Assembly: GCF_002087335.1 (NCBI RefSeq) | Contig: NZ_MWVJ01000001.1 | Location: forward strand, 124,001 to 188,000 | Direction of reading: 5' to 3' | Length of the DNA: 64,000 bases | Source: Pseudophaeobacter leonis | Lineage (GTDB): Bacteria; Pseudomonadota; Alphaproteobacteria; Rhodobacterales; Rhodobacteraceae | Shown: positions 4,991-52,050 of the stretch, piece by piece | Layout: each line of letters opens with the position of its first letter | Numbering within the stretch: position 1 is the first letter of the stretch | The notes under the pieces: generated by a model | Told to the model about the DNA's origin: nothing | Databases searched by the model: none | What the model saw: only the letters and a program-made list of their open reading frames with translations | Position numbers and translations under genes: made by a program

Positions 4991-5062
4991 CTCCCGCGCC
5001 CGCAGATGTCCCAAGGGACACCTTGGCGGCCTTGGGCCCGGCGCTGTGCTCACGCACAGCGG
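4991..5062 (+). repeat. Two-hairpin 3' element, copy A
   Basis: Layout: CTCCCGC (4991-4997), hairpin TGTCCC-AA-GGGACA (5007-5020), conserved TTGGGCC (5032-5038), hairpin GCTGTG-N6-CACAGC (5043-5060). The same order of parts, with different but still paired stems, occurs at 5161-5237 (minus), 27533-27615 (minus) and 51968-52050 (plus). This copy is in the sense direction downstream of the Trm112-like gene. Confidence 0.65.
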
Positions 5063-5160
5063 GGACATACCTCAGACCAAAGAGCACCATATCAACTTTG
5101 CTGATTGTTTGTGATGTGTCTTGGGATCTGTTTTGCCAACCCGGGTGATATCAGCGGTGC

Positions 5161-5237
5161 AGCGCCTTGCCGTGTGGCAAGGCGCTTGGCCCAACGGGAG
5201 CACTGCAATCTTTGATTGCTGCCGCGACGGGCGGGAG
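5161..5237 (-). repeat. Two-hairpin 3' element, copy B
   Basis: On the minus strand: CTCCCGCCCG (5237 downwards), hairpin GCAATC-AAA-GATTGC (5219-5205), CTCCCGTTGGGCC, then hairpin AGCGCCTTGCC / GGCAAGGCGCT with 11 perfect pairs and a four-base loop (5186-5161). It is oriented as the 3' end of the ubiH-like transcript and stands opposite copy A, so the gap between the two convergent genes holds one element for each. Confidence 0.75.
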
Positions 5238-5262
5238 CACTACCTTGCCGAATGCGCCCAGA

Positions 5263-6489
5263 TCAGATGGCTTTGCCTTGCAGCAGGCGGGGCATATCCC
5301 CTGTCAATCCAGCCGCTTCGCGCATGAAGCGACGTCTCAGCCCCGGCAGGCCCGCCACCACGCCCATGCCAATGTCGCGACCAAGGCGCAGGAGCGGGTT
5401 GTCATTTGAGAACAGCTTGTTGACCATATCTGTCGTGGCAGCAAGCGTGGCCGTGTCAAAACGGCGCCATTGCTGATAGCGCTCCAGAACAAGCACAGAG
5501 CCAATGTCTTCCCCGCGCCGCGTGGCCTCTGTCAGCACCTCGGCCAGTGCCCCGACATCGCGCAGGCCTGCGTTCAGTCCCTGCCCGGCGATAGGGTGCA
5601 TGCCATGGGCGGCATCGCCGACCAGGGCCAGCCGCGCGCCGATGAAACTGTTGGCGATGGTCAGACTCAGCGGGTAGGTAAAGCGCTTGCCCGTCAGGGA
5701 TATCTCCCCAAGGAAATCCCCAAACCGGGGCTTCAGCGCGGCAATATAGTCGCTATCGTTCAACCCCTGTATTGCGGCCGCCATGTCACTTTTCTCGCTC
5801 CACACGATGGACGAGCGGTTGCCGGGCAGGGGCAGGATCGCCAGCGGGCCGGCCGCCATAAAGAACTGATGTGCAATGCCATGATGCGGCTTTTCGTGCG
5901 CGATGGCGCAGACCAGCGCGGTCTGGCCGTAGTCCCAACCGCTGCGTTTGATGCTGGCGCGCGCGGCCGTGCCGCTTTTGCGACCGTCACAGCCCACAAG
6001 CATCCGCCCGCGCAGCTCGTCTCCGTTTTCCAGGGTCAGGGTCACGCCGGTCTGATCCACGGCCTGGGCAATGACCCGGCGCTGATTGATCAGGGTGATG
6101 CGCGGCTCTTCATCCATGGCCTGCAGGAAGGCGCGGCGTAAAAACCGGTCCTCAATCATATAGCCCATCGGGCCTTCTTCGATTTCACGGTGATCGAAAT
6201 GCAGGAAAAACGGAGCGGCCCCCTCGCCGGCATGGCCATCGCTGGCCTTGATCTCCAGCATCGGCTGCGCATGATCTGCCACCCTTGACCAGACCCCTAT
6301 CTGGTCCAGCAACCGCTGCGAGGCCAGTGCCAGGGCATAGCTGCGCCCGTCAAAGGCATCCTCTTCAAAATCGCCCCGCGGCAGGGCGTCTACCACGGTC
6401 ACGCCATGGCCGGTTTGCGCCAAAGCCAGAGCCAAAGCAGGGCCGTTGAGGCCGCCGCCGACGATCAGGATATCGGATGTGTTTTTCAT
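5263..6489 (-). CDS. ubiH: UbiH/UbiF/COQ6-family FAD monooxygenase
   Basis: Probable flavin hydroxylase of ubiquinone ring hydroxylation. The protein starts MKNTSDILIVGGGLNGPALA with a Rossmann GxGxxG dinucleotide site, has the central FAD/NADPH motif around LVGCDGRKSGTA, and the C-terminal GDAAHGMHPIAGQGLNAG motif diagnostic of the UbiH/COQ6 family. Length is 408 residues from ATG 6489; an upstream in-frame ATG at 6525 gives 420, but the family begins near the Rossmann strand. Neither start has a clear ribosome site. It is convergent with the Trm112-like gene. Which ring position it hydroxylates cannot be told from sequence alone. Confidence 0.85.
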   Translation of the reverse strand: MKNTSDILIVGGGLNGPALALALAQTGHGVTVVDALPRGDFEEDAFDGRSYALALASQRLLDQIGVWSRVADHAQPMLEIKASDGHAGEGAAPFFLHFDHREIEEGPMGYMIEDRFLRRAFLQAMDEEPRITLINQRRVIAQAVDQTGVTLTLENGDELRGRMLVGCDGRKSGTAARASIKRSGWDYGQTALVCAIAHEKPHHGIAHQFFMAAGPLAILPLPGNRSSIVWSEKSDMAAAIQGLNDSDYIAALKPRFGDFLGEISLTGKRFTYPLSLTIANSFIGARLALVGDAAHGMHPIAGQGLNAGLRDVGALAEVLTEATRRGEDIGSVLVLERYQQWRRFDTATLAATTDMVNKLFSNDNPLLRLGRDIGMGVVAGLPGLRRRFMREAAGLTGDMPRLLQGKAI

Positions 6490-6665
6490 GCTTTGCAATA
6501 TGCGCCGATTGCCGGGATTGTCCATGCGGTTGTCGCTGAAATCCGACCAGAGGCCCTGCGGTCAAAGGGTTTGAAACACAGGCCTGCTGAGATGTTCGAA
6601 ATGCCTCTTCGGGATTGTGCCACCCCAAGCGGAGCGCTACCGTTCGCAAAATTTCCACGGGAGTG

Positions 6666-8023
6666 ATGGCTATGCAGGACGGGCTGAATATGCAGGACTG
6701 GCTGAAAATGAGTGCCGCTGATCTGGGACGCGGGATCGACGCGGGGACGATCGATCCGGTCGCCCTGACGCAGGCCTATCTGGCCGCCATCGATGCGCAT
6801 CCCCATCGCGATCGCATCTTTAGCGCCGTCACCCATGATCGCGCCCTGGCCGAGGCAGAGGCGGCAGCGACACGCGCCAGGATGGGGCTGCGTCGCTCGG
6901 CTCTGGACGGGGTGCCGATCAGCTGGAAGGATCTGTATGATTCTGCGGGCGCCACCACCGAGGCAGGCTCTGATCTGCTGAAAGGCAGGGTGCCGGATCA
7001 GGATGCGCTGGTTCTTGAGGTCGCCACCGCCATGGGCAGTGTGTGTCTGGGCAAAACCCATATGAGCGAGCTGGCCTTTTCAGGCCTCGGCCTGAACCCG
7101 ATCAAGGAAACACCCCCCTGCACCAACGATGAAGCAGCCGTGCCGGGGGGGTCATCTTCCGGCGCTGCCGCCTCGGTGGCCTTTGGACTGGCGGCGGGCG
7201 CAATAGGCTCTGATACAGGCGGATCTGTGCGTATCCCGTCGGCGTGGAACGATCTGGTCGGGCTGAAAACCACCGCCGGACGATCAGCCTTGAGGGCGTG
7301 GTGCCGCTCTGTCTAAAGTTCGACACGGTCGGGCCTCTGGCGCGTACGGTTGAGGATGCGGCGCTGTTTCTGGGCGTTCTTGAGGGCACGCAAGGCCCGG
7401 ACCTGCGCAATGCAGATAGCGTGAAAGGGCGGCGGTTTGCCGATCTGCAGACCATCGCACAGGACGATCTGGACCCGGTTGTGGCCGAAAGCTACGCAGC
7501 CTCGCTGGTCAAGCTGCAAGAGGCCGGTGCCGAGATCGTGCCGCTTGAGGTGCCCGAACTGGCTGAGGCCATGGCGCTCAGCGCGATTCTTTTCACCACC
7601 GAGGCCTATGGGCTGTGGAAGGATGTGATCGAGGCCAGCCCTGATCTGATGTTTGGCGAAATTCTTGCGCGCTTTCGGTCGGGCGCTCAGTTCTCCGGGC
7701 CGGACTATGTGGCCGCCTGGGCCAAGCTCGAACAGGTGCGCATGGCCTGGGATCAGGCAGCAGCCGGGTTCGACGGCGTGCTGTCGCCCAGCTGCCCGAT
7801 CCTGCCACCGAATCTGGCGCGTTTGCAAACAGAGCACGACTACTATGTGCAGGCCAACCTGCTGACCCTGCGCAATACCCGCATTGGCAATCTCATGGGC
7901 CTTTGCGCGCTGAGCCTGCCGACCGGAACCCCCAGTTGCGGTTTGCAGATCCTTGGCCAGCCGGATTGTGAAGAGGCATTGCTGCGTGTTGGTGCGGCGG
8001 TTGAGGCCGCTCTGGCGGGGTAA
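6666..8023 (+). CDS. Amidase, amidase-signature family (one-base deletion near 7281)
   Basis: Ser-cisSer-Lys amidohydrolase of about 452 residues after repair. Seen: the catalytic Lys in ISWKDLYD, the glycine/serine loop PGGSSSGAAA, and the nucleophile region GSDTGGSVRIP. After KTTAGR the frame breaks; adding one G in CCGGACGATC restores RISLEGVVPLCLKFDTVGPLA and the frame runs to 8023. Substrate unknown: the family includes GatA-like, allophanate and mandelamide hydrolases. It is not GatA itself by context, as no gatB/C is near. The start is ATG 6666 (6672 is possible). Downstream, 8024-8265 holds no gene; it has a CCCCAGAC / GTCTGGGG hairpin at 8087-8110 without a T run. Confidence 0.85.
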
Positions 8024-8265
8024 GGGCTGCGGCCCGCCTGTTCATTTCAAAGGTCAAACGGGTGGTGCTGCCGAGGGGCGGCGCGGCCCCAGACCGGGCT
8101 GCGTCTGGGGCGAGACTGGCCCGGGTCTGGCCCGAGGCAGGGCCGAATCTGGCCGGAATGCCACAAAAATGGTTCAGGCGGTATGCTGCGGCTGGACGCA
8201 TCGGCTCTTGCTCTGTAATTTATCTTTAAACGGGGCGTGAATGATCCCGGATTTGAGGCCTAGAT

Positions 8266-9462
8266 ATGACTTTCCCTGAGCGGTTTGCGAACCTCCCAGC
8301 CTATGCGTTTCCGCGCCTGCGGGCTCTATTGGACCATCACGCGCCCGGCGGCGACGTGGTGCATATGACCATTGGCGAGCCAAAACATCAGTTTCCCCAG
8401 TGGGTCACAGATGTCATTGTGGAAAATGCTGCTGGGTTTAACAGCTATCCGCCCAATGACGGATCGGATGAGCTGCGCGCTGCGATGGCAGACTGGATCT
8501 TGCGCCGCTACGGCGTGAACATGGACGCGGCCACCCAGATCATGGCGCTGAATGGCACCCGCGAGGGGCTGTATAACGCCGCCATGGCGCTGTGCCCGGA
8601 GCAAAAGGGCGGCAAAAAGCCCACGATCCTGATCCCGAACCCGTTTTATCAGGTCTATATGGTGGCCAGTCTTTCTGTCGCCGCTGAGCCGGTCTTCGTT
8701 TCGGCAACCCGTGCAACGGGGCACCTGCCGGACTATGAAAACCTGCCAGAGGATGTGCTGCAACGCACGGCCATCGCCTATATCTGCTCGCCTGCTAATC
8801 CGCAGGGCGCTGTGGCGAGCCGGGACTACTGGCAGCGCCTGATCCGGCTGGCAGAACAGTATGATTTCAAAATATTTTCTGATGAATGCTACAGCGAGAT
8901 CTACCGGGATGACGCCCCCGTTGGAGCACTCACCGTGGCGCAGGAAATGGGCGCTGACCCTGAACGGGTGGTGCTGTTCAACTCGCTTTCCAAACGCTCG
9001 AACCTGCCGGGATTGCGCGCCGGGCTGATTGCAAGCGGGCCGGAAAATATCAAACGGATCAAGCAGCTGCGCGCCTATTCCGGAGCACCTGTTCCGAGCC
9101 CACTGCAGGCCGCGGCGGCACGGGTCTGGGCGGATGAGGCGCATGTGGATGAGAACCGTGCGCTGTATCAGGAAAAGTTCAAAATTGCCGATGAAGTGTT
9201 CCAGGGCCTGGAGGGCTATATGCCGATTGAGGCTGGCTTTTTCCTGTGGTTGCCGGTGGCTGATGGTGAGGCTGCCGCGCTGAAGCTGTGGCGTGAGACC
9301 GGGGTGCGGGTACTGCCGGGCGCTTATTTGGCGCAGGGCGCACTTGGTCAGAACCCCAGTCAGAATCCCGGTGAAGGTTATATCCGGGTAGCGCTTGTGG
9401 GTTCGGCCGAGGTGACGCGGCAGGCGCTGACTGCGCTGCGAAAGTGCCTGTACGACGACTAG
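8266..9462 (+). CDS. dapC: Class I aminotransferase, DapC-like
   Basis: PLP-dependent aminotransferase of 398 residues. Motifs: NGTREGLYN (cofactor phosphate site), ICSPANPQGAVAS, the DECYSEIY aspartate/tyrosine pair, and the Schiff-base lysine in SLSKRSNLPGLR near residue 243. These wordings match alphaproteobacterial proteins annotated as N-succinyldiaminopimelate aminotransferase (lysine/peptidoglycan precursor route); a general aspartate aminotransferase is the alternative. It is a single gene preceding ftsK by 116 bases. Confidence 0.8.
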   Translation: MTFPERFANLPAYAFPRLRALLDHHAPGGDVVHMTIGEPKHQFPQWVTDVIVENAAGFNSYPPNDGSDELRAAMADWILRRYGVNMDAATQIMALNGTREGLYNAAMALCPEQKGGKKPTILIPNPFYQVYMVASLSVAAEPVFVSATRATGHLPDYENLPEDVLQRTAIAYICSPANPQGAVASRDYWQRLIRLAEQYDFKIFSDECYSEIYRDDAPVGALTVAQEMGADPERVVLFNSLSKRSNLPGLRAGLIASGPENIKRIKQLRAYSGAPVPSPLQAAAARVWADEAHVDENRALYQEKFKIADEVFQGLEGYMPIEAGFFLWLPVADGEAAALKLWRETGVRVLPGAYLAQGALGQNPSQNPGEGYIRVALVGSAEVTRQALTALRKCLYDD

Positions 9463-9578
9463 ACTGACTGCATCGGTGCGCCCTTTTTGGGGGAGTATCG
9501 GTGCCAAGATAAATACGGCCGGTGATCAGAACCTGCGGCAACAGCAGGGCACATCGGCAACAATGAACTGAGGTAGAC

Positions 9579-12500
9579 ATGGCATTTCAAACCCGCAGCA
9601 GAGACCCCCTGCTTGACAGCTCGATGCAGGCGGCGATCGAAAAGCGCGGCAAAGAGTTGATTGGGATCTTCCTGATCGCTTTGGGTCTGATCGTGGCTGC
9701 GATGGTTGGCTCTTATACACCGGATGACCCCAATTGGATGGTCTCGACGGATGCGCCGGTGCAAAACTGGCTGGGCCGCCCCGGGGCCTCGATTGCGGCG
9801 CCTTTGTTTATGATCGTGGGCTGGGCCGCCTGGAGCCTGGCTCTGATGCCGCTGGCCTGGGGGCTGCGGTTTGTGTGTCACATTGGTGAAGAGCGGGTGC
9901 TCAGCCGGATGATCTTTGCGCCGGTCCTGCTGGCGGTGGCTGCGATCTATGCTGCGACTTTGGTGCCGGGTGCGGCGTGGAAAGTGACCCATAGCTTTGG
10001 CCTGGGTGGCCTGTTTGGCGACACCGTCATGGGTGCTATGCTGACGCTGTTGCCCGTGAGTTCGCATTTCGCGGTCAAGCTGATGTCGCTGCTGATGGCG
10101 GCAGGCATGCTGACCCTTGGGATCTTTGTTGCCGGCTTCAGTCGCGCCGAGATGACGCGGGCTGGTGGCTATCTGATGCTGGGATTTGTGCTGATCTATG
10201 GGGCGATTGCCAGCCTGTTGGGGCGGGGCGCAACCAGCGGCTTTCAGGCTGCGATGAGCTATCGCAACGAGCGCCGTGCAGCCGCTGAATTGAAGGCCGA
10301 ACAAGAGGCATGGGCGGCGGACAATGAAGACTCTCAGATGTTTGAAAGCTATGCGCCCGACCCTGCATTGGATGGGGCAGGGGATGCGGATGCGGTGACT
10401 GCTGCGGACAAGCCTGAGAAAACCGGGTTGTTTGCACGGGTGCCCGGCCTGATGCGCCGCGCAGATGCAGAGCCCTTGTCTGAGGCCATGCCTGCAACGA
10501 TGCCCGAGCCCGAATTGGTTGAGACCGACGCCAGTGGCGAAGCCTTGCTGACTGGGGATGCGCGGATCTCAGAGAAAATCGCCAGTGCGGGCGCATTCGT
10601 CGTGCCGCGACCAAGGCGCCCGGACCGGATCCGGATCTGCCCCTGACAAAGGGACGCGGACGCCGGGCGGAACCTTTGCTCTTTAACCCAGAGGCGGCCC
10701 CTGCAGGTCTGCCGCCGGAGCCACCCCTGACGGCATCGCAAACTGTGCCCTTTGCCCCGTCTGTTGGCGCAGCAGCGACCTCTTTTGTACCAAGCGCCCC
10801 CGCCCCCGCCCCTGCGCTGCGCCTGTGTCAGACCCCTTTGAGCCTCAGGATGCTGTGGCGCGGGTTGCGACAGAACAGGCTGCAACAGCTGACCTCTCAG
10901 AGGCACAGCGGGACACCACACCAGAGAGTGCGCCAGTGGCACCAGATCAGGACCTTTCTGATGGGCTGCCGACTGGACAGCCGACTGAGCTGCCAAGCGG
11001 GATTCAGACTGGGCGGGTGCTTCAGCGCGAGGCACCCGGCGCGCAGTCAGGCGCGCAGCCAGACGGACAGCCTGTGGCCCAGCCTCAGCAACCACGAGCC
11101 TCGGATCCTGTGAGCTACGATTTGCCCGTGGCCGAGCCGCGCAAGCCGGTAGTGGAACAGCCGCAGCGCAAAGCCGTGGTGCCCTCCACACGGGCCAAGG
11201 CCGAATCCCAGCCTGCTCTGGCCTTTGAAGAAAGCGACGCGGGGTTTGAATTGCCACCGCTGTCATTGCTGAGCCATCCAAACGGGGTTGAGCGTCACCA
11301 TCTGAGCGATGAGGCGCTGGAAGAAAACGCCCGGATGCTGGAAGTGGTTCTGGACGACTATGGCGTCAAGGGTGAGATCGTCTCGGTGCGTCCCGGCCCC
11401 GTTGTCACCATGTATGAGCTGGAGCCTGCGCCGGGTCTTAAGGCGTCACGCGTTATTGGCCTGTCGGATGATATTGCCCGCTCGATGTCGGCGCTGTCTG
11501 CGCGGGTCTCGACGGTGCCGGGCCGTACCGTCATCGGCATCGAGCTGCCAAATGAAAAGCGCGAGATGGTCAGCTTTCGCGAAATCCTGTCGTCGCGCGA
11601 CTATGGCGATGGCACCCAGCACCTGCCGCTGGCTCTGGGCAAGGACATTGGCGGGTCAGCCATGGTGGGCGACCCTGGCCAAGATGCCGCATTTGCTGAT
11701 CGCCGGGACCACGGGCTCGGGTAAATCGGTGGCGATCAACACCATGATCCTGTCGCTGCTTTATAAACTGTCGCCGCAGGAATGCCGCCTGATCATGATC
11801 GACCCCAAGATGCTTGAGCTGTCTGTCTATGATGGCATCCCGCACCTGCTGTCGCCGGTTGTGACCGATCCCAAAAAGGCGGTTGTCGCCTTGAAATGGG
11901 TCGTGGGCGAGATGGAAGACCGCTATCGCAAGATGTCCAAGATGGGCGTGCGCAACATTGCCGGCTACAATGGCCGCGTCAAAGAGGCCCTGGACAAGGG
12001 CGAGATGTTCAGCCGCACGGTGCAGACCGGTTTTGACGATGATACCGGCGAGCCGGTGTTTGAGAGCGATGAGTTCGCCCCCGAGGCGCTGCCCTATATC
12101 GTTGTCATCGTCGACGAGATGGCAGATCTGATGATGGTTGCCGGCAAAGAGATCGAGGCCTGCATCCAGCGTCTGGCGCAGATGGCGCGGGCCTCTGGGA
12201 TTCATTTGATTATGGCGACACAGCGCCCCTCGGTTGACGTGATCACTGGCACCATCAAGGCTAACTTCCCCACCCGGATTTCGTTTCAGGTGACCTCAAA
12301 AATCGACAGCCGGACAATTCTGGGCGAAATGGGGGCCGAGCAGCTTTTGGGCATGGGCGACATGCTCTATATGGCGGGCGGCGCCAAGATCACCCGCTGT
12401 CACGGACCGTTTGTATCGGATGAAGAAGTCGAAGAGGTGGTCAATCACCTGAAACTGTTTGGCCCGCCTGAATATGTTGGCACCGTTCTGGATGGTCCCG

Positions 12501-12757
12501 AAGGCGAAAAGGCCGAGGACATCGACGCGGTTCTGGGGCTGTCTACCGGCGGCAATACCACCGGCGAAGATGCGCTTTATGATTCTGCGGTACAGATCGT
12601 GATCAAGGATCGCAAATGCTCAACCTCCTATATTCAGCGCAAGCTGGCCATTGGCTACAACAAGGCCGCGCGCCTGGTTGAGCAGATGGAAGACGAGGGG
12701 CTGGTCTCGCCGGCCAACCATGTGGGCAAGCGGGAAATCCTTGTTCCCGAACAATAA
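9579..12757 (+). CDS. ftsK: DNA translocase FtsK (three one-base indels)
   Basis: Septal DNA pump that segregates chromosome termini and activates XerCD. The repaired protein is 1059 residues: four N-terminal membrane segments (about residues 25-200), a low-complexity Pro/Gln/Ala linker, then the RecA-like motor with Walker [11 protein letters not shown], Walker [15 protein letters not shown], the [12 protein letters not shown] segment and a C-terminal gamma winged helix ([25 protein letters not shown]). Frame changes: a missing G near 10586, a missing C near 10822 (CTGCGCCTG) and an extra C near 11682 (GGCGACCCTGG). After these three the length is an exact multiple of three. The gene is essential in relatives, so the breaks argue for sequence error. 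Confidence 0.93.
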
Positions 12758-12779
12758 CCGCTCATGCGCAATAAACCGC

Positions 12780-25870: not shown

Positions 25871-27447
25871 ATGCGCGACTTTCAATCTCCCGGACGCTCT
25901 GCCGTCTATGCTCAGAACGGCCTCTGCGCCACGTCACATCCGCTGGCAGCAGGGGCTGCAATAGATGTGTTAAAGCGCGGCGGAAACGCTATGGATGCCG
26001 CCATTGCCGGCGCTGTCTTGCTGGGCATTTGCGAGCCACAGATGACAGGCATCGGTGGCGACTGCTTTGTGCTCTTCTCCCGGGGCGGCAGCGATGAAAT
26101 CCATGCGGTGAACGGCTCGGGGCGGGCACCTGCTGCTGCCACTGCGGCCGATCTCCGGGCCAGGGTTTGGATGCGGTTCCCCTGCGCAGCGCCCATGCTG
26201 TCACCATTCCAGGCGCCATAGAGACCTTTTGCCACCTCGCTGAAACCGAGGGAAAACTGGGTCTGGATGCGCTGCTTGCCCCGGCCATTCACTATGCGGA
26301 AACGGGCGTTCCGGTGGCGCCACGTGTGGCCTTTGACTGGGGCAATGATGCGGAGGCCCTGCAGGGTGCTGCCCGCAACGCCTTCTTATTCGATGGCAAA
26401 GCCCCCTCTGTTGGTCAGATCTTTCGCGCCCCCGGTCAGGCCGAGGTGCTGCGCCGCGTCGCCCGCGACGGGCGTGATGCCTTTTACAGCGGTGAAATTG
26501 CCGAAGATATGATCGCCACGCTGCAGGCCGCCGGAGGGCTTCACACCGCCGAGGATTTTGCCAGTGCAGCCTGTGATCGGGTGACACCGGTTTCCGCGTC
26601 CTACAAGGGGGTTGATCTGGCCGAGCATCCACCCAACGGCCAGGGTGCAACTGCATTGCTTTTGCTCAATATTCTGGCGCATTTTGATATTGCCGCGATG
26701 GATCCCTTTGGTGCCCAGCGGGCCCATATCGAGGCCGAAGCCTCCAAGCTGGCCTATGATGCCCGCAACCGATTTCTGGCCGACCCAGATCACACGTCGC
26801 GGCTTGAGCATATGCTGTCTTTGGAAACAGCGGCCAAATTGGCGGCTCTGATTGACCCCAAACGCGCCATGGCCGCCGCCGCACCCCTGAGTGAAGCGGT
26901 CCATAAAGACACCATCTACATCACTGTGGTGGACAAGGACCGCATGGCGGTGTCGCTCATCTATTCGATCTTTCACGGCTTTGGCGCGGGCCTCGCCTCC
27001 GATAAATTTGGCATCCTGCTGCAAAACCGTGGTGCCGGCTTTACCCTGCAAGAGGGCCACGCAAACGAGCTGGCAGGCGGCAAGCGGCCGATGCACACTA
27101 TCATTCCGGGCATGCTGCGCAAAGAGGGAGGAGTTGTGATGCCCTTTGGTGTCATGGGTGGCGCATACCAACCCACAGGTCATGCCCGCTTTGTCTCTAA
27201 CCTGCAGGATTTTGGCATGGATCCCCAGTCTGCCATTGATGCGCCCCGCTGTTTCACCGATGCCGGCGTGCTGAAGGTCGAGCGCGGCTATAGTGATCAG
27301 ACCCGACAAGAGCTGAGCGATCTGGGGCATAGCGTCGAAATCCCCGGGACCGCCCTTGGCGGCGCCCAGGCAATCAATATACGTCCCGATGGCATTCTAG
27401 AAGGGGCAAGTGATCCCCGCAAAGATGGCTGCGCTCTGGGCTACTAA
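25871..27447 (+). CDS. ggt: Gamma-glutamyltransferase-family Ntn hydrolase (one-base deletion near 26162)
   Basis: A 525-residue (repaired) proenzyme of the gamma-glutamyltranspeptidase family. The large-subunit start has [25 protein letters not shown]. The self-cleavage/nucleophile threonine is expected in [17 protein letters not shown], and the small subunit has [15 protein letters not shown]. One C is missing near 26162 (CGGGCCAGGG); the repaired text is [20 protein letters not shown]. No export signal is evident, so this may be one of the cytoplasmic acylase-like members and not a glutathione-degrading periplasmic enzyme. Confidence 0.85.
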
Positions 27448-27532
27448 GCTGCGTTCGGGCGACTTACCTGTCCTCTTTGAGCGATAAATGGGGGCAAGAC
27501 CCACAGGTGCTGCATCACAATCCTGCGCGACC

Positions 27533-27615
27533 GCGCCGGGCCTTTGGCCCGGCGCCATGCCCAACGCATGGGGCAAGCTGGCTGGTACAGCCGGCTCTGT
27601 CACAGGGGGCGGGAG
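27533..27615 (-). repeat. Two-hairpin 3' element, copy C
   Basis: On the minus strand: CTCCCGCCC (27615-27607), hairpin with 9-bp arms AGCCGGCTG / CAGCCAGCT around TAC (27596-27576), a GTTGGGC core, then hairpin GCGCCGGGCC-AAA-GGCCCGGCGC with ten perfect pairs (27555-27533). It lies downstream of and in sense with hspQ, opposite the end of the gamma-glutamyltransferase gene. The gap 27448-27694 has nothing else that I recognise. Confidence 0.7.
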
Positions 27616-27694
27616 CCCCGCGCCAGACGTGCTGGATCACAGCGGCGAGACCCGCAGCACATGGAGAGCAACGCAATAGAATAAAGAGTGGGGG

Positions 27695-28021
27695 TTAGTT
27701 CAGCTGATACTGCAGCGAATAGGCTGCACCATCGAACTGGTCAAACATCTCCGGCAGGTCCGGATGGCTGATTGGTTCGCCGGAATAGTCCGCAACCAGG
27801 TTCTGCTCCGAGACATAGGCCACGTAGTAGGTCTGGTCGTTTTCCGCCAGCAAATGATAAAAGGGCTGGTTCTTCACTGGTCGGCTGTCTTCAGGAATCG
27901 CCTCGTACCACTCATCCGAATTTGCGAACTTGGGATCAACATCAAAGACCACACCCCGAAAGGGGTGTTTGCGGTGGCGGACCACCTGTCCCAGATTATA
28001 TTTTGCGCGCGTTCTTAACAT
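27695..28021 (-). CDS. hspQ: Heat shock protein HspQ
   Basis: A 108-residue hemimethylated-DNA-binding/YccV-like protein. Signature parts: KYNLGQVVRHRKHPFRGVVFDVDP, EWYEAIP, QPFYHLLAENDQTYYVAYVSEQNL. In enterobacteria HspQ promotes degradation of mutant DnaA and acts as a Lon specificity factor. It is divergent from the AEC carrier gene and followed by element C. Confidence 0.9.
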   Translation of the reverse strand: MLRTRAKYNLGQVVRHRKHPFRGVVFDVDPKFANSDEWYEAIPEDSRPVKNQPFYHLLAENDQTYYVAYVSEQNLVADYSGEPISHPDLPEMFDQFDGAAYSLQYQLN

Positions 28022-40747: not shown

Positions 40748-40749
40748 CA

Positions 40750-44485: not shown

Positions 44486-45842
44486 TGACGGATGGGTCTT
44501 GGGTCACGCTGATCTCGCTTGGGGTCACATTTTTATTCATGCTTGGAGTGCCTGTGCTGCTGGTGATTGCCTATTGGGTGATTGGCTGCTCCTTTTTGCT
44601 GGGTCTGACGCTCGACAATATGGGCGCAGAGCTGCTGAACGTCTTTAACAAGGGCTTTGCCCTGCTGGCGATGCCGCTGTTCATCCTGACGGGGGATCTG
44701 ATCAACCAGTCCGGCATTGCCCGGCGATTGTCGGATTTTGCCTATGCCTGTCTCGGCTGGCTGCGCGGCGGGCTGGCCATGGCGGCGCTGGGCGCCTGTG
44801 GCCTGTTCGCAGCCATCTCTGGCTCAAACTCGGCGACCACAGCCACGATTGGCTCGATGCTGCACCCTGAAATGGTCAAAGGCGGCTACGACGAGCGCTT
44901 TTCGGCGGCCACGGCGGCGGCGGGCGGCACAGTCGGGATCATCATCCCGCCGTCGATCATCTTTATCGTCATGTCTTCTTACTGAACCTGCCGATCTCAG
45001 AGCTGTTTGTGGCCGGAATTCTGCCCGGAGCCCTGATGGTGATTGGCATGCAGCTGGCCTGCTGGATCATCTGCCGCATCAATGGCTGGGGCCATCTGAT
45101 CCCTTTGCAGCTGACCCGCGTGCTGAAAACCGCCTTTGGTGCCTGGCTTGGCTTTTTTGCTATCGGTCTGGTGCTTTGGGGGATTTACACTGGTAAATTC
45201 TCACCGACCGAGGCTGCCGGTGTCACCGTTGGCTTCTGTGTGATTGCCGGGCTGGTCAGCTATCCGCTGAACCGCATTCTGGGCACAGGCCGGGACAAAC
45301 CGCTGAGCGAAAAATCCTACGCCGAGATGCTGGTGGTTGAGGGCTTCACCATTCCGCAGATTCCTTCGGTGGTGATCCGATCGGCGCAGATCACCGGCAT
45401 TTTGGCGCCGCTGATTGCGATTTCGGTGGTGATGCAGCAGATCCTGTCCCTGCTGGGGGCACAGCAGGCGATTGGTGATTTTGTGACCTCGATGGGCGGC
45501 TACTATGCGGTGCTCTTTACCTCGATGGTGATCGTGTTCTTCTCGGGAATGGTATTAGAGAGCCTGCCTGTCACCATCATTCTGGCACCGATTCTTGCGC
45601 CGATTGCGGCCTCCGTGGGGATTGATCCGATCCACTTTTCGGTGATTTTCCTGGTCGGGGCCTCCATCGGGTTCATCACGCCGCCTTATGGGCTTAACCT
45701 CTATGTTGCATCTGGTGTTACCGGCGTTCCCTACTTCCGTCTGCTGCGCTATACGGTGCCCTACCTTATAGCTTTGATTAGTGTCTGGATACTGGTGGCA
45801 CTGGTTCCTGATCTGGCTCTGATCCTGCTGCCCAACAGATAG
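44485..45842 (+). CDS. dctM: TRAP transporter large permease (DctM-type; one-base deletion near 44974)
   Basis: 452-residue (repaired) transport subunit with about twelve membrane segments. Motifs: AMPLFILTGDLINQSGIARRL, AISGSNSATTATIGSM, TVGIIIPPSIIFIVM, and near the end GASIGFITPPYGLNLYVASG. One base is missing around 44974 (ATGTCTTCTTACTGA); with it the frame runs FLLNLPISELFVAGILPGAL. It overlaps dctQ and precedes the IclR gene by ten bases. Confidence 0.88.
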
Positions 45843-45852
45843 ACCTGACGCC

Positions 45853-46647
45853 ATGCCAACTGAGACGACCTCTTCCAAAGAGACACAAATCCCAACCAAT
45901 CTGCGATTGTTGTTGATCCTGGAGGAGGTCGCCCGACGCGGCGTCGCCGTCAAACCTGCGCAACTGGTCGAGACCCTGGGCCTGCCCAAGCCAACCCTGC
46001 ACAGGCTGTTGCAAACGGCTGAAGAAGAGGGCTTTTTGCAGCGTGATATTGATGGGCGCTCTTTTGGGCCGGGCCCGCGGCTGCGCGCCCTTGCGGTCAA
46101 TACGATCTCATCCGAGCACCTGCGCACGGCGCGTCTTGCCATTCTAAAGGCTGTTGCCGAGGACATCGGGGAGACCTGTAACCTTGCCACGCCAGACCGC
46201 GAAGGCATGACCTATCTGGACCGGGTCGAGACCAAATGGCCGCTGCGTATTCAATTGCCGATTGGCACGCAGGTGCCGTTCCATTGCACCGCCAGCGGCA
46301 AGATGTACCTGTCAACGCTGCGCCCGGCGACTTTGAACAGTGTCCTGTCTGCCCGTGCGCTGGAGCCGCAGACAGAAAAAACCATCACCGCCCCGGATGC
46401 CCTGCGCGAAGAGCTGCAAAAGACACGAGACCGGGGCTACGCCACCGACGATGAAGAGTTCATGACGGGAATGGCTGCGATAGCGGTGCCCATCCTTGAT
46501 CCGCAAAGCCGCCTTATGGCGACACTCTCGGTTCATGCTCCGGTGCAACGTCGTTCGCTGGCCCAAATCCTGGAGTTTTTGGAGCCGTTGCAGCGCGCGG
46601 CACAAAGGCTGACCGATCTGAATGAAAACCAAACGGACGGGTCCTGA
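45853..46647 (+). CDS. IclR-family transcriptional regulator
   Basis: 264 residues: N-terminal winged helix (about 15-75; LLLILEEVARRGVAVKPAQLVETLG) and C-terminal GAF-like effector domain (about 90-255; TCNLATPDREGMTYLDRVE, LPIGTQVPFHCTASGKMYLS, GYATDDEEFMTGMAAIAVPI). It is last in the TRAP operon and probably controls it and the GMC gene through the dyad at 42423 (inference). Confidence 0.88.
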   Translation: MPTETTSSKETQIPTNLRLLLILEEVARRGVAVKPAQLVETLGLPKPTLHRLLQTAEEEGFLQRDIDGRSFGPGPRLRALAVNTISSEHLRTARLAILKAVAEDIGETCNLATPDREGMTYLDRVETKWPLRIQLPIGTQVPFHCTASGKMYLSTLRPATLNSVLSARALEPQTEKTITAPDALREELQKTRDRGYATDDEEFMTGMAAIAVPILDPQSRLMATLSVHAPVQRRSLAQILEFLEPLQRAAQRLTDLNENQTDGS

Positions 46648-46764
46648 CAGTTTGGTCCTGACAGTTTGGTTTTGGCCAGCTGAAATCCAAGACGTCCCCG
46701 CCTGGCAGAGGCCTAGCGGTCCTGGGCCTTCTGGCGGTCCTGGGCCTTCTAGCGATCCTGGGGA
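46640..46764 (+). repeat. 14-bp and 18-bp tandem duplications at the IclR/DUF1272 junction
   Basis: GGTCCTGACAGTTT is duplicated at 46640-46653 and 46654-46667; the first copy includes the IclR stop. CTAGCGGTCCTGGGCCTT is present 2.9 times at 46713-46764 and runs into the end of the DUF1272 gene. The gap contains no other gene. Confidence 0.65.
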
Positions 46765-47063
46765 GGTATATCTTTGATTCGCGCAACGTGGTTGGCAATG
46801 TCCTCAGCGGTGAACCTAGAATAGCGCCGCTTCTTTTTGGCAGGGTGATATTCCAGGCCAAGCTGCAGCTCTGGGCGAAAGGAGGTTTGGGGTCGGAATG
46901 GCCGAGGCATAAAGCCGCCACCGCATGTGGGGCAGACATTTTGCAGTCGTTTCTCGACGCAGGTCGCACAATAGGTGCACTCATACGAGCAGATCCGGGC
47001 CTCCGGTGAATTGGGCGGCAGGTCTTTATCGCAGTGCTCGCAATTGGGTCTGAGTTCCAGCAT
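46749..47063 (-). CDS. DUF1272 cysteine-rich protein
   Basis: 104 residues, beginning MLELRPNCEHCDKDLPPNS and with eight cysteines in CxxC-type pairs (CEHC, CSYECTYCATC, CPTCGG), the DUF1272 zinc-ribbon-like pattern. Function of the family is not known. The basic C-terminal tail (PAKKKRRYSRFTAEDIANHV) is longer than the core domain. Convergent with the IclR gene. Confidence 0.88.
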   Translation of the reverse strand: MLELRPNCEHCDKDLPPNSPEARICSYECTYCATCVEKRLQNVCPTCGGGFMPRPFRPQTSFRPELQLGLEYHPAKKKRRYSRFTAEDIANHVARIKDIPPQDR

Positions 47064-47315
47064 TTAGCATTCCTTTTTTGCCGTATTTTTTTAGCCACAT
47101 CCGCCCAAGGACAGGGCCCAAAAACACCAAACGTCCTTCTTCAGGCTGGTGCCACTGTGGCAGAAAAATCTGACCTAAGGGTTACTTTTCCAGCGCCCTG
47201 CGCTCTGGTGGGCGCTTTGCTTGCTTTGCATCACAATCCGCGATGTAAGAATAACATAAACGGCGCTTCTCCTTTGCCAGCGACCTGCGATAAAGGCACA
47301 TCAAAGGAGCCCACG

Positions 47316-48220
47316 ATGATCGAAGCCGCGCGCGAAAATACCGATACCCCGCAGGGATTGGCTTTTGCCATTTCCGCCTATGTTCTGTGGGGGTTCCTGC
47401 CGCTCTATATGAAGCTGCTGGCGCATATTCCGGCGGCAGAGGTGGTGGCGCACCGGGTGCTCTGGTCGGTGCCGGTTGCCGGTCTTTTGCTGGTGGTGCT
47501 GGGACGCACCAGCGATCTGCGCGCCGCTCTCACCAGCCCGCGCACCCTGGTGATGGCCTGTGTCACGGCGGCGCTGATCTCGGTGAACTGGGGCATCTAT
47601 GTCTGGTCCATTGCAAGCGGGCATGCACTGGACGCGGCGCTTGGCTATTACATCAATCCGCTGTTCAGCATCGCGCTGGGCGCCCTATTGCTGCGCGAGC
47701 GGCTGACACGAACGCAGCTGGCCGCCATTGTCCTGGCGGCAGCGGCGGTGGTGGTTCTGACACCCGAGGCCGGGCGGCTGCCCCGGGCCGCCGGGGGGCT
47801 GACACTCAGCTGGGGGGTTTACGCCTTTTTCAAAAAGATGCTGCCGGTAGGGCCGATTCAGGGCTTTATGCTCGAAGTCCTGATCCTGACGCCGCCCGCG
47901 CTTGGCTATCTGGCCTATATGTCGGCAACGGGTGGCACTCATTTTGCTGGCTTTGACATGTTGTTGCTGATGGGCTGCGGCCTGGTGACGGCGGTGCCGC
48001 TGATTGTCTATGCCAATGGCGCCAAACTGTTGCGGCTCTCAACCATCGGCATTTTGCAGTATATCGCCCCACGATGATCTTTCTGGTCGCCGTTTTTGCC
48101 TTTGGCGAAGAGTTCGGCCGCGCCCGCATGATTGCTTTCCCGATGATTTGGGCCGCTTTGGTGATTTATTCGATCCCCTTGATCCGTCAATTGCGCAGCC
48201 CGGCAAAACCCGCGCCCTAG
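47316..48220 (+). CDS. rarD: RarD/EamA-family permease (one-base deletion near 48072)
   Basis: 301-residue (repaired) drug/metabolite-type transporter with ten hydrophobic segments. RarD-type wording: GLAFAISAYVLWGFLPLYMK, HRVLWSVP, NWGIYVWSIASGHALDAALG, YYINPLFSIALGA. After LQYIAP one base is missing (CCCCACGATG); the repaired tail is TMIFLVAVFAFGEEF to the TAG at 48218. The start is ATG 47316 after AAAGGAG. The substrate is unknown. Its stop overlaps that of the convergent SGNH hydrolase by four bases. Confidence 0.85.
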
Positions 48221-48987
48221 GGCGGCGGTGCCTGTTCGCTCTGCGAGGCGGCGAGGTGATCAAGGATCTTCTCGCCCAGTCCCAGTGCCCAAAGCCGATA
48301 GGCCTGCGCACTGGGGTGATAGCCATCTGCCGCAGCCAGGGCAGGGTCCTGCGGCAGCTGAAACGGCATATGCGCAACAGCGGGATGCTCTGACGCCAGC
48401 GCTGCCAGCACGTTGTCCAGCCGGGCGGACTGTCGCCCCAGAACCCAGGCCAGCGGCTGTGGCAGAGCCGGAAAATGCTGCATCTGTGGCACGCCACAGG
48501 CGAGGATCAGCCTGGGCTCAAAACGGTCCAGCAAAAGCTGCATCAGCTGCGATTGTTGCCTGTAAAAGCGCGTGCGCGTGGTGCCATGGGTCACATCATT
48601 GACGCCAAGGGCCAGAATTATCACGTCAAACTGCTGTTTCGGCAGGGCCTGCAGTCGCGTGATAGTATCGCGGGTCTGGTGTCCTGTGGTGGCTTCAAGG
48701 CGCCAGTGAACCTCAAACTGCGCCGACAGCTGCGCGGCCAGCTGACCGCTCAACCCCTGGCTTTGCGCGCTCACGCCAACGCCGGCAGCAGAACTGTCTC
48801 CTGCAATCAGCACCCGCAGCTGGCGCTCCTGTTCCAGTTCGCCCTGTTGTAGTCTCTCCTGCGCCATCTGCCCCTGACGCGGACCCCTGGGTTCGGGCAG
48901 AATAAGGGCCCGCCGCCGCACAGTGATTGCCTGCAGCGCCAGCAGGGGCAGCAGCGGTAGCCGCAGGATTTGATCAAGGGCGAGCAT
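48217..48987 (-). CDS. SGNH/GDSL-type hydrolase
   Basis: 256 residues. SGNH blocks: VLIAGDSSAAGVG (Ser), the Gly block around TTGHQTRDT, ILALGVNDVTHG (Asn) and DGYHPSAQAY (Asp/His). A hydrophobic N-terminus (LPLLPLLALQAITV) could be a membrane anchor or signal. Lipase/esterase-type activity is likely, with substrate unknown. It is convergent with rarD. Confidence 0.82.
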   Translation of the reverse strand: MLALDQILRLPLLPLLALQAITVRRRALILPEPRGPRQGQMAQERLQQGELEQERQLRVLIAGDSSAAGVGVSAQSQGLSGQLAAQLSAQFEVHWRLEATTGHQTRDTITRLQALPKQQFDVIILALGVNDVTHGTTRTRFYRQQSQLMQLLLDRFEPRLILACGVPQMQHFPALPQPLAWVLGRQSARLDNVLAALASEHPAVAHMPFQLPQDPALAAADGYHPSAQAYRLWALGLGEKILDHLAASQSEQAPPP

Positions 48988-49060
48988 GAGGTGGCGCCTG
49001 TCCCGTTTTTAGAGTGGCCGAGCTGTCAGCTCAGGTTAGGTCAGCCCAGCTCTGGTCAGA

Positions 49061-49471
49061 TCATGTGAGGGCGTGGCGGAATTCCAGAAACCGCGCATCA
49101 GTCTGCACCCGGGCATTGATCGCTTCGCGCAGCGCGCCAATGGTTTTATAGGGGCGCATGACCACCTCGAAATTTTGGATAAGGCCTTCGTCATTCAGCG
49201 TCAGCAGGTCGACGCCGACCGTGTCGAGATCACCAACCTTGCACTGAAACTCCAGCGCCCAGTCCTTGCCTTCGCCCATGATGCGACGATAGCGGAATTC
49301 GGAAAAGACCTGTCCCACATGGCCCAGCACCGCAGCCACTGGCGCACGTCCGGTCCAGGTCTTCCAATAGGTGGGCGGCAGGAAGGTCACGTCTTCGGCC
49401 AGTAGCTCGGCAATGTCCGCTTCGTTTCCCTTGGCGACAACGTCCTGAATGCGACTGATGGTTGGATGCAT
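49061..49471 (-). CDS. NTF2-like/SnoaL-type protein
   Basis: 136 residues of a cone-shaped NTF2-like fold: HPTISRIQDVVAKGNEADIAELLAEDVTFLPP, TGRAPVAAVLGHVGQVFSEF, DTVGVDLLTLNDEGLIQNFEVVMRP. Members are small-molecule isomerases, cyclases or binding proteins; the job of this one cannot be told. It is divergent from the RluA gene. Confidence 0.75.
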   Translation of the reverse strand: MHPTISRIQDVVAKGNEADIAELLAEDVTFLPPTYWKTWTGRAPVAAVLGHVGQVFSEFRYRRIMGEGKDWALEFQCKVGDLDTVGVDLLTLNDEGLIQNFEVVMRPYKTIGALREAINARVQTDARFLEFRHALT

Positions 49472-49582
49472 GGTCTCTCTCCCTGGTTTGTTGTGCCAGA
49501 TCCTGCGTTTCAGGGTGCCTCACGGCAAGCACGACGTCACGGGAACTTGCTCTGGGCAGGCAGGCGCAGTAGGCAGGCCCCT

Positions 49583-50235
49583 ATGGCAGTTTCAAGCGAA
49601 TATACCCCGCCGCAGGACCCGTTGAGATCCTGCATCATGACGCCCAGATTCTGGTGGCGAACAAGCCCGCCGGCCTGCTCTCTGTGCCCGGGCGTGGCGC
49701 GCATCTGGCGGATTGCCTGCTGAGCCGCGTGCAGGCGGCCTTTCCCGAAGCGCTGCTGGTGCACCGGCTGGATCGCGATACCTCGGGCATACTGATCTTT
49801 GCGGTGACGCCACATGCGCAGCGACATCTGTCAAAGCAGTTCGAACAGCGCAGTGCCAAAAAGGTCTATGTTGCGCGTCTTGAGGGGCACCTTGAGCCAC
49901 GGGCCGGTGAGGTTGATCTGCCGCTGATCGTGGACTGGCCCAACCGCCCCCGGCAGATGGTGTGTCATGAGACCGGAAAGCCCTCGGTAACCGACTACCG
50001 GGTGGTGAAATACGGCGAGGGAGAAACCCGCGTGCGTCTGACCCCCAAAACCGGTCGCACCCATCAGCTGCGGGTGCATATGCAGGCTCTGGGTCATCCG
50101 ATTCTTGGAGATCCGCTTTATGCCAGCGGTGCTACGCGCGAGTTTGATCGCATGATGCTGCATTCCGAAGAGCTGCGGATCAAGCATCCTGACAGTGGCG
50201 AATCAATGAAGTTCCGCGCCAAAGCGACGTTCTGA
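49583..50235 (+). CDS. RluA-family pseudouridine synthase (one-base deletion near 49622)
   Basis: 217-residue (repaired) RNA pseudouridine synthase without an S4 domain. The catalytic Asp is in LVHRLDRDTSGILIFA; other blocks are VANKPAGLLSVPGRG, GRTHQLRVHMQALGHPILGD and LHSEELRIKHP. Near 49622 one base is missing so that the start MAVSSEYTPPQDP joins EILHHDAQILVANKPAG. RluA-type enzymes act on 23S rRNA U746 and tRNA U32; the exact target is not assigned. Confidence 0.88.
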
Positions 50236-50319
50236 CTGCCTGCGACCCTGTCTACCTGCGGGAGCATGCATCTGGGCTGAAGCTCAGTTGCGCTGAGGGC
50301 TGGCCGGTTCAGGCTGGAT

Positions 50320-51189
50320 TCAGGGCGTGATCCGCAGCCAGTCGGCTGGCAGAATATCGGGGTTGTGCAATTTGGGATCACCAAACCAATTGGCCGGGCC
50401 TGCGACGCGTTTATGCGCATTGGTATTGAGCCAGGCGGCCCACCAGGAAAACGAGCTGTTGCCGATGATATTATGCGCGCACAGGCTCATCAGGCGCATG
50501 TCTTCAAAATCGGTGTCCGGCCCGTTGAAATCCACCACTACCTTGTTGCAGGGCAGCGGCAGGTTGGCCTTGGCCCAGTCGGGGTCATCGGAAAAAACAT
50601 AGACGGTGGGCGGTCCTGTCAAAGTGTCTGACACATCCTCTAGCACACGGGCCAGAGCCGCCTCGTAATAGGCCTGATCACAGAGCACATGGGCCGACAG
50701 AGCGATATAGTCGCCGCGCCGCACATGCAGCGAGATGGCATTGCCCTCGGCAATGCGCGCGGCCATCTCGGCGTTCTGGCTGTTGCTGAACTCGGGAAAG
50801 GTGAACTCGGTGCGGATCAGCGCCTGGATTTGGTCAAAGTACTTCTCGCTTTGCCAATAGCCGTGCAGGTAGCTGTCATCGCCCCAGGTGGCAAAGTCAG
50901 GGTTGTAGCCAAGACCCCGCTCGCGGCGGAACCTGGGTGTCAGCCCCATGCTGCCCCGCAGGCCGCGCCACAGCGCATAGCGTAGCGGCGCCTGCTGTTT
51001 TAGCGGTGGCAGGGAGTTTGGCGGGCAAAGATCCAGGTCAAAAACCCGGGTCAGCACACCCTCGCCCCGCAGCTCTGCACCGCGACTGTCCAGCGCAACA
51101 GAGGTTTTTAGGCGATGCGCTAATGCGCGGGCGGCAGCATATTGAAACATCTGGTTGCCGAGGCGGCCGTGCAGGCGGGCAGTGATCAT
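50320..51189 (-). CDS. GT11 alpha-1,2-fucosyltransferase-like protein
   Basis: 289 residues with the GT11 peptide blocks: ITARLHGRLGNQMFQYAAARAL (donor-site start), SLHVRRGDYI (HxRRGDY) and IIGNSSFSWWAAWLN. It transfers fucose or a related sugar to a surface glycan. The ATG at 51189 was chosen; nine extra codons upstream are doubtful. It is an isolated gene without other polysaccharide genes next to it, which suggests a late tailoring role. Confidence 0.87.
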   Translation of the reverse strand: MITARLHGRLGNQMFQYAAARALAHRLKTSVALDSRGAELRGEGVLTRVFDLDLCPPNSLPPLKQQAPLRYALWRGLRGSMGLTPRFRRERGLGYNPDFATWGDDSYLHGYWQSEKYFDQIQALIRTEFTFPEFSNSQNAEMAARIAEGNAISLHVRRGDYIALSAHVLCDQAYYEAALARVLEDVSDTLTGPPTVYVFSDDPDWAKANLPLPCNKVVVDFNGPDTDFEDMRLMSLCAHNIIGNSSFSWWAAWLNTNAHKRVAGPANWFGDPKLHNPDILPADWLRITP

Positions 51190-51473
51190 GACAGGGTCCT
51201 CAACCAGGGTCCTCAACAGAGGCGTGTCGCCCTGAATAAAGCGCTTTGACGGGTTGGACCAGTTGTGAGGCGCGCGTCTGTAGGCTTGACGGCGGGGGCG
51301 GGACTAAAGTATGCGAGGCCCAGGTTTGGGTCTCCTGCCTGCCGCAGCTCTTGTGAGAGCAATGGTGAAACCCTGATAAGATCAAACATCTATCGCTCAG
51401 TTATTTTGGCGCGCTGGATGGCAATGCGGACCCCATCATGACTTGCGTGCCATTATAGTGGGACGAACAACAG

Positions 51474-51917
51474 ATGACTGATTTATCAAATGTGCCTTCA
51501 ACGGATGCGTTGAAGCAGCAGGCAAAGCGTCTGCGACAACAGTTAAACAACAGCGGTGTTGCGGTTGGCCATTCAGCGGCTCTGGAACTGGTGGCGCAGC
51601 AATATGGCGCGCGGGACTGGAATACCCTGCAGGCGCTGGCGGGCAACAAGTTGCAGCTGCGGGTGGGCGACCATGTTCGCGGCCGCTATCTGGGGCAGGC
51701 CTTTACCGGCGAGGTGCGGGGGCTTTCCGTGCTGGGAGACGGCGAGAGCCGCCAGATCACGCTGCATTTTGACGTGCCGGTGGATGTGGTGCGTTTTGAA
51801 AGCTTTTCGTCGCTGCGGCAGCGGGTTCAGGGAGTGATCGGCTGGGACGGCTGTTCCGCGCGCAAAACCTCTGACGGGGTGCCACAGCTGATTGTTGAGG
51901 GGCTGGTGCAGACCTAA
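51474..51917 (+). CDS. Glyoxalase-superfamily-labelled protein of unknown function
   Basis: 147 residues. The N-terminal helix region LKQQAKRLRQQLNNSGVAVG and HSAALELVAQQYGARDWNTLQAL match proteins often labelled glyoxalase superfamily; the C-terminal half (LRVGDHVRGRYLGQAFTGEV to VPVDVVRFESFSS) looks like a small beta-barrel. No catalytic residue can be assigned. It is followed in sense by element D. Confidence 0.6.
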   Translation: MTDLSNVPSTDALKQQAKRLRQQLNNSGVAVGHSAALELVAQQYGARDWNTLQALAGNKLQLRVGDHVRGRYLGQAFTGEVRGLSVLGDGESRQITLHFDVPVDVVRFESFSSLRQRVQGVIGWDGCSARKTSDGVPQLIVEGLVQT

Positions 51918-51967
51918 CGCAGACACATCAGCCTGCAGGTACTGCCGGAGTTGCAGGTAAGGGGGGG

Positions 51968-52050
51968 CTCCCGCCCGTCGTTGATCTGCACAGGTGCAGC
52001 CCGGCCTCCCGTTGGGCCCAGCGCCGCGCGAAGCGCGGCGCTGGGCCCAA
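51968..52050 (+). repeat. Two-hairpin 3' element, copy D
   Basis: CTCCCGCCCG (51968), hairpin CTGCA-CAGG-TGCAG (51986-51999), CTCCCG (52006), then an 18-bp perfect stem TTGGGCCCAGCGCCGCGC / its complement around GAA (52012-52050). It has the longest stem of the four copies. It is in the sense direction after the 51474 gene; the rest of the 51918-52204 gap has no gene. Confidence 0.75.

Follow-up and report, generated by a model that had tools for sequence, protein, structure and literature searches.

A two-hairpin, REP-like repeat family at gene ends in Rhodobacteraceae, with signs of selection on its structure

The window analysed here is a stretch of 64,000 nucleotides of the Pseudophaeobacter leonis genome (contig NZ_MWVJ01000001.1, positions 124,001 to 188,000). 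It carries copies of an intergenic element composed of two conserved words and two hairpins. Its layout resembles that of repetitive extragenic palindromes (REPs), and the evidence for selection on its structure is clear. A preliminary description of the window had located four copies, and a covariance model of the family re-finds all four. A fifth, on the minus strand, had been overlooked, so the window holds five (Table 1). They lie at a 5-kb site (copies 1 and 2), a 27.5-kb site (copy 3) and a 52-kb site (copies 4 and 5). The shared plan with fixed words holds, except that the second word of the 27.5-kb copy departs from TTGGGCC. A sixth match, 27519-27586 (+), is weak (E 0.14) and corresponds only to the reverse of the palindrome.

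Table 1. Copies of the element in the window and the genes beside them (window coordinates)
Feature	Position	Strand	Description	Adjacent genes
Copy 1	4982..5074	+	Covariance-model match; G17-C66 type; purine tract, CTCCCGC at 4991, hairpin 1, TTGGGCC 5032-5038, hairpin 2	Downstream of small open reading frame 4676-4867 (+)
Copy 2	5150..5246	-	Covariance-model match; class A, CTCCCGCCCGTC; faces copy 1	Downstream of FAD-binding monooxygenase-like gene 5263-6525 (-), PF01494
Copy 3	27521..27624	-	Covariance-model match; single; second word TTGGGCA	Flanked by YccV-like gene 27695-28021 (-), PF08755, and gamma-glutamyltranspeptidase gene 26167-27447 (+), PF01019
Copy 4	51959..52053	+	Covariance-model match; class A; plus half of composite	Downstream of glyoxalase-like gene 51474-51917 (+), PF20066
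Copy 5	52009..52110	-	Covariance-model match, E 2.9e-10; minus half of composite; overlaps copy 4	Faces aldehyde dehydrogenase gene 52205-53746 (-), PF00171
Central hairpin common to copies 4 and 5	52012..52050		18 pairs in the predicted fold; arms hold TTGGGCC and GGCCCAA	

Taken alone, the words are not above chance in the window: CTCCCG is found 20 times (46.8 expected) and TTGGGCC 17 times (18.5 expected). The spaced word pair is enriched genome-wide: it matches 66 times, and the reversed pattern 13 times. Individually folded copies reach modest z-scores, from -2.3 to -3.7.

On the strand as drawn, the unit starts with a purine-rich tract, followed by CTCCCGC, a variable and imperfect hairpin 1, TTGGGCC and a GC-rich hairpin 2. 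In 83 P. leonis copies, the tract favours A at -9 (0.61) and -8 (0.49), G at -7 (0.70) and either purine at -4 (0.95) and -3 (0.90). The arms of hairpin 1 vary, with a median of 6 Watson-Crick pairs according to our hairpin finder. At its base (CCC-GC/TT-GGG), CCC stands opposite GGG, followed by a G.T pair and then by a C/T mismatch. The G.T is invariant in the 60 aligned copies. The pair above the mismatch covaries (C-G in 258, G-C in 77 and A-T in 11 of 367 copies), and the position after this closing pair is unpaired in 47 of 60. Hairpin 2 most commonly has 9-10 pairs and a loop of 3-4 nt.

Units occur singly or as facing pairs, some of which are fused into a composite of about 130-150 bp with inverted-repeat ends and a common central hairpin. 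The covariance model finds at least 97 copies in the P. leonis genome (E up to 0.01), a floor obtained with 150 of 3922 candidates scored. Among the 97, 49 are single and 48 form 24 close pairs. As noticed earlier for copies 1 and 2, the members face each other; this is so in all 24 pairs, nine of which overlap by 44-47 bp. We folded seven orthologous composites, the distinct sequences among eight (alignment A2). In the consensus, the inverted-repeat ends pair with each other, and the arms of a long central hairpin contain TTGGGCC and GGCCCAA; both partners have changed in 10 of the 49 predicted pairs. Aligned composites from unlinked loci agree to 74-84% over 133-153 bp, and for two loci the agreement reaches 93% over 95 bp. 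In all four alignments shown, the similarity breaks off at the element ends or no more than about a dozen bases from them. Common descent of the composites is therefore likely. In one P. leonis composite (C64, compared with C55 and C84) the second word is altered to TTGGGCG with a matching change in the opposite arm, which suggests that changes in the word are tolerated as long as the central hairpin still pairs.

The stems had been said to change by compensation, and this is borne out. Over 60 copies, 236 cells are altered on both sides, versus 104.8 +/- 8.3 in 500 shuffles, none reaching 236, and 81-125 in six slid versions; these counts are inflated by the relatedness of the copies, and the pair list was drawn by us from the same alignment. 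Covariation at background level is therefore excluded. The covariance model (R1) started from 67 pattern cores. Two were removed, a chance match without hairpin 2 and an overlapping duplicate, and five of the remaining 65, with an odd or distant hairpin 2, were dropped by eye to give the 60 aligned; both the model and the covariation count thus favour good copies. Compensation is also seen at orthologous positions. At the 27.5-kb site, eight of the nine recognisable orthologues were aligned (A3; the pattern missed one). Six pairs are altered on both sides, versus 2.1 +/- 1.1 in shuffles and 0-3 in slid versions, and a C-G to G-C switch at the closing pair is among the compensatory changes.

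Substitution rates were compared between two relatives that are about 97% identical (G157 and G158), using 51 pattern-defined elements at sites matched by the model in both genomes, a choice that may somewhat favour conserved copies. Other intergenic DNA shows 328 substitutions in 9596 positions (3.4%) and coding DNA 588 in 32510. Against this intergenic rate, hairpin-2 stems (4/861, 0.46%; p 2e-8) and the conserved words (7/691, 1.0%; p 1.4e-4) are much slower, hairpin-1 stems are slower as well (12/656; p 0.024) and loops are not (15/330, 4.6%; p 0.28). The remaining element positions show 18/832. The purine tract (17/424) shows no constraint by this measure. Only two stem pairs are altered on both sides between the two genomes, one kept and one broken, so the evidence for compensation rests on the wider comparisons. 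Since stems and words are slow while loops are free, the rates argue that the structure is under purifying selection, in keeping with the earlier proposal that the shape is selected.

Genes were called with our own codon-usage script, and some "antisense" copies may reflect overlooked small genes. We could classify 205 of 221 copies from P. leonis and from named loci, leaving out 16 at locus edges. The named loci, at least 118 stretches, were found by the class A pattern and are hence biased to class A. Single copies in the P. leonis genome are located between convergent genes in 38 cases, between tandem genes in 8 and between divergent genes in 1; the corresponding numbers in the named loci are 34, 21 and 3. 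Overall, 72 of 105 classifiable singles are convergent, and divergent (promoter) gaps are avoided (4/105). The convergent share of the P. leonis singles (38/47) far exceeds that of window gaps of at least 90 bp (7/37; p 1.4e-8). The named singles also differ from element-free gaps of at least 90 bp in the named loci, of which 25/194 are convergent (p 1.3e-11). Paired copies are less one-sided, being convergent in 28/46 (P. leonis) and 28/54 (named loci).

According to the preliminary description, the element always follows a gene in the sense direction. The counts do not support this as a rule. It is automatic in convergent gaps, because either strand there is downstream of a gene, and single copies in tandem gaps divide into 18 sense and 11 antisense (p 0.26). 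Another tally of tandem singles, 30:24, counts orthologous copies repeatedly and was set aside. Placement at random with respect to gene strand, named in advance as a point against the idea, is thus nearly true of tandem gaps. For single convergent copies of the named loci, the median distance from stop codon to CTCCCGC is 20.5 nt, with looser spacing on the far side (median 59). In P. leonis the median is 62 on both sides. The element is tied to gene ends, converging ones above all, more than to the sense direction.

The strand that folds deserves attention. Interior mismatches of hairpin 1 on the drawn strand are more often A.C than G.T. The ratio is 41:9 in 256 hairpins, orthologues included (17 of 287 copies had no findable words). 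It is 29:4 in 199 P. leonis and named hairpins versus 412:363 after shuffling (p 3e-5). Under a stricter rule it is 33:9 in 363 hairpins, orthologues included and identical cores only dropped, versus 45:29 after shuffling (p 0.018). As an A.C on this strand is a G.U on the complement, the selected folded RNA may be the complement, which would read hairpin 2, hairpin 1, GCGGGAG and a pyrimidine tail. It would form the 3' end of the opposing transcript, just before this becomes antisense to the neighbour. In P. leonis, the tract before CTCCCGC contains almost no T and is rich in A at -9 and -8, which would suit this arrangement, but the A-rich part is weak in the named relatives (0.27-0.29). Moreover, hairpin 2 shows little of the asymmetry (A.C to G.T of 8:8 and 9:4), and in aligned columns G.T falls most while A.C scarcely rises. 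At the foot of hairpin 1, the invariant G.T can form a pair on the drawn strand but not on the complement, and the copies of named relatives sit close behind the drawn-strand gene. The G157/G158 changes are few (3 A.C and 2 G.T in hairpin 1; 0 and 2 in hairpin 2). We consider it quite unlikely that the complement is the selected RNA; both strands may be transcribed in convergent gaps.

DNA-level roles, as gyrase or nucleoid-protein sites, have been proposed for bacterial interspersed mosaic elements (BIMEs). The present element might similarly be such a site, or a cruciform, that handles supercoils between converging polymerases. A strong convergent bias combined with little orientation bias in tandem gaps would be expected of it, composites are symmetrical, and PMC3733652 lists DNA supercoiling among the suggested REP roles. 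However, variable covarying stems point to folded single strands and not to a site read in duplex. A cruciform should become perfect instead of keeping fixed mismatches, and the asymmetry between A.C and G.T is unexpected for a strand-symmetric DNA function. We find this explanation very unlikely.

A search of the P. leonis genome and its relatives with the covariance model, as had been suggested, found many further copies, which disposes of the possibility that the window held them all. Each of the 12 same-genus genomes (P. leonis included) carries 36-96 copies. Within the family, 26 of 149 sampled genera have copies, that of P. leonis included. A class-wide draw of 190 genomes gave matches only in P. 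leonis and in one other genome of the same family, and doubles as a false-positive control. In the surveys across the family's genera and across the class, 22-28 candidates were scored per genome under stricter filters, which makes absences soft. The class A pattern matches records titled Phaeobacter, Leisingera, Ruegeria, Tritonibacter, Tropicibacter, Tropicimonas, Epibacterium and others (from 80 titles, of at least 118). These surveys show that the repeat family is confined, as far as sampled, to a single alphaproteobacterial family, which the named matches indicate to be Rhodobacteraceae. Two records titled Nocardioides marinus strain DP1N28-1 (L183, L184) carry class A elements otherwise found under Rhodobacteraceae titles; they possibly come from a mislabelled or mixed assembly. 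A literature search, partial in coverage and no proof of absence, retrieved no description of this repeat family.

Within the genus, the 5-kb site has elements in 9 of 12 species (P. leonis included), one of which has them as a fused composite; both are missing from three species. The 52-kb site was recovered in 11 species, with the composite in eight, half of it in two and none in one. At the 27.5-kb site, a recognisable copy is present in 9 of 12 species and a degraded one in two. In the last (G150; L272, L280), hairpin 1 and both words are lost and a hairpin-2-like stem persists; hairpin 2 and the rest of the unit may thus be lost separately. When 40 better-scoring sites of G157 were compared with 55 regions of G158, 39 were shared, with a mean identity of 97.4%; the unmatched site possibly reflects a gap in a 93% complete assembly. 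These comparisons show that sites are stable between close relatives, with slow turnover within the genus. No Y1 transposase (PF01797, the type of the REP-associated tyrosine transposases, RAYTs) was found in the P. leonis genome. Over the 149 genera, such a transposase is not associated with the element either (present in 4 of 26 genera with the element and in 11 of 123 without; p 0.30), contrary to what a RAYT link, raised earlier as a check, would predict. A comparison of the 161-bp composite with plasmids and phages gave no match; divergent copies would be missed. Because 39 of 40 sites are shared and the Y1 transposase is absent, the family looks resident, not mobile. Of the suggested REP-like mobile repeat, the layout, with its facing pairs, is supported; present mobility is not.

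The family could also be a non-functional relic similar to REPs or to miniature inverted-repeat transposable elements, spread non-autonomously by a lost or unidentified transposase, the convergent bias marking places where insertion is harmless. The likeness of unlinked composites, the facing dimers with inverted-repeat ends and the avoidance of promoter gaps are all as expected of such a relic. So are the patchy occurrence among genera and the clean absences in three species at one site, and published REPs share the same geography (PMC3733652, sections available to us). On the other hand, a relic would hardly account for stems and words that evolve several-fold more slowly than neighbouring intergenic DNA when loops do not, nor for the compensatory substitutions between orthologues. 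All 60 aligned copies retain the G.T and C/T mismatched step in hairpin 1, which palindrome repair would erase. No present movement is seen between relatives about 97% identical, and the P. leonis genome lacks a Y1 transposase. Thus, a mere relic seems somewhat unlikely.

The reading that we tentatively favour, on sequence comparisons, is that of a Rhodobacteraceae REP/BIME-like repeat that spread long ago and has been kept as a hairpin-cluster signal for 3' ends. The copies would descend from ancient composites and would have been kept at gene ends, mainly between converging genes. Once transcribed, the hairpin cluster would set the 3' boundary of transcripts. It could make the polymerase stall or stop, either by itself or together with a factor (Rho, for example), and could also or instead block 3' exonucleases. 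The outcome would be less read-through into the opposing gene, and a near-symmetrical pair would let one site act for both strands. We favour this reading because covariation exceeds the controls, orthologous changes are compensatory and stems and words are slow. Convergent concentration, avoidance of promoter gaps, facing pairs and the short stop-codon distance in the named relatives argue in the same direction. Finally, hairpin clusters without a U-tract have already been proposed as terminators (PMC8355165, in the parts available to us).

Several observations weigh against a 3'-end signal. A general terminator is expected equally at the ends of tandem units and at convergent ends, and the element is not; its orientation in tandem gaps is near even. 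The clean loss from three species at the 5-kb site and the absence from 123 of the 149 sampled genera indicate that any function is dispensable or replaceable. The mismatch asymmetry hints that the folded RNA is the other strand. As stated in the preliminary description, there is no T run: T amounts to 6-31% at the first six positions after hairpin 2, and no canonical U-tract follows. For the aldehyde dehydrogenase gene, a canonical terminator already precedes copy 5. In the named loci, canonical terminators are found at 3/62 convergent ends with a sense element and at 5/58 without any; in P. leonis the counts are 12/65 with an element and 3/12 without, hence not clearly rarer. The idea that elements replace canonical terminators is unsupported by these counts.

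The terminator at the 52-kb site is a GC stem with a T-run at 52148-52173 (-), directly behind the aldehyde dehydrogenase gene. In the relatives printed, a similar stem stands beside an A-run in the same gap, even where the composite is halved or absent.

A bolder version of the 3'-end reading, which we hold to be unlikely, makes the element a factor-read signal for converging transcript ends, specific to Rhodobacteraceae. The words and the fixed mismatched step would be a protein site, hairpin 2 a barrier, and the composite a two-way stop against antisense read-through without a U-tract. Canonical U-tract terminators occur at few of the gene ends examined, and a conserved, countable hairpin signal at converging ends would help to explain transcript ends in this large, mostly marine family. 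Copies that look resident and constrained, not mobile, also help to separate two questions that are mixed for REP-like repeats, and domestication would be open to simple deletions.

Rfam gave no match over the copies at the gathering score. With a relaxed threshold, applied to 51900-52204 only, the perfect central hairpin gave the best match, to a plant microRNA model (26.9 bits, gathering 81; E 0.00076), which we take as chance. Elsewhere in the window, positions 1965-2068 (+) match SorX (RF02784), a small RNA of singlet-oxygen resistance, with 53.8 bits (gathering 46.6). Between the small open reading frame and copy 1, at 4893-4985, there are degenerate direct repeats of about 15 bp (GACAGGCCAAGACTC-like); none were seen by eye in the corresponding gaps of the relatives printed.

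Among known systems, the integron attC site has a GTTRRRY core. The second word of the present element reads GTTGGGC in 261 of 367 copies, CTTGGGC in 87 and other letters in 19. With that core missing from part of the copies and a placement between converging genes unlike that of cassettes, attC sites were set aside.

A closer likeness is seen with the CGTC REPs of Alphaproteobacteria (Di Nocera et al. 2013, PMC3733652). As described in the sections available to us, these are dispersed palindromes in dozens of copies, mostly intergenic and mainly between convergent and unidirectional genes. They lie near 3' ends, often as facing dimers, and no dedicated transposase is known for them. Dispersal, 3'-end and convergent placement, facing dimers and the lack of a transposase are thus shared. 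However, CGTC REPs are single hairpins with a loop of 4-5 and a stem of 8-9 bp that has A-T at its first two positions; one end bears CGTC (or TGTC/CCTC) as an unpaired tag, and there is a short, CCA-like tail, whereas the present unit has two hairpins and long invariant words. Of 367 copies, 185 have CGTC among roughly their first 15 nt (TGTC and CCTC not counted), and this number is inflated because the named loci were recovered with the class A pattern. The main text of PMC3733652 contains no mention of Rhodobacter, Ruegeria, Roseobacter or Silicibacter. GTAG REPs and BIMEs, moved by RAYTs (PMC3733652 and PMC2817692, as far as available), also consist of facing units that form larger structures at gene ends, and the opposite-orientation pairing typical of REPs and BIMEs is seen here in all 24 close pairs. 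The present family differs in having no fixed GTAG tag (14 of 367 copies have GTAG in the 10 nt that precede CTCCCGC), no Y1 transposase in P. leonis and no sign of present movement. Both tagged REP types were set aside, on their tags and on the single-hairpin definition.

Finally, the U-, V- and X-shaped hairpin-cluster intrinsic terminators (PMC8355165, in the parts available to us) place hairpins side by side behind a stop codon and lack a U-tract, and an X-shaped cluster is coded by opposite strands. By anatomy and placement, the present units likewise put at least two adjacent hairpins downstream of a stop codon. Hairpin-cluster terminators are a shape class, whereas the present copies form a homologous family with invariant words and covarying stems. 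Terminators of this kind without a U-tract are the closest functional idea for the element.

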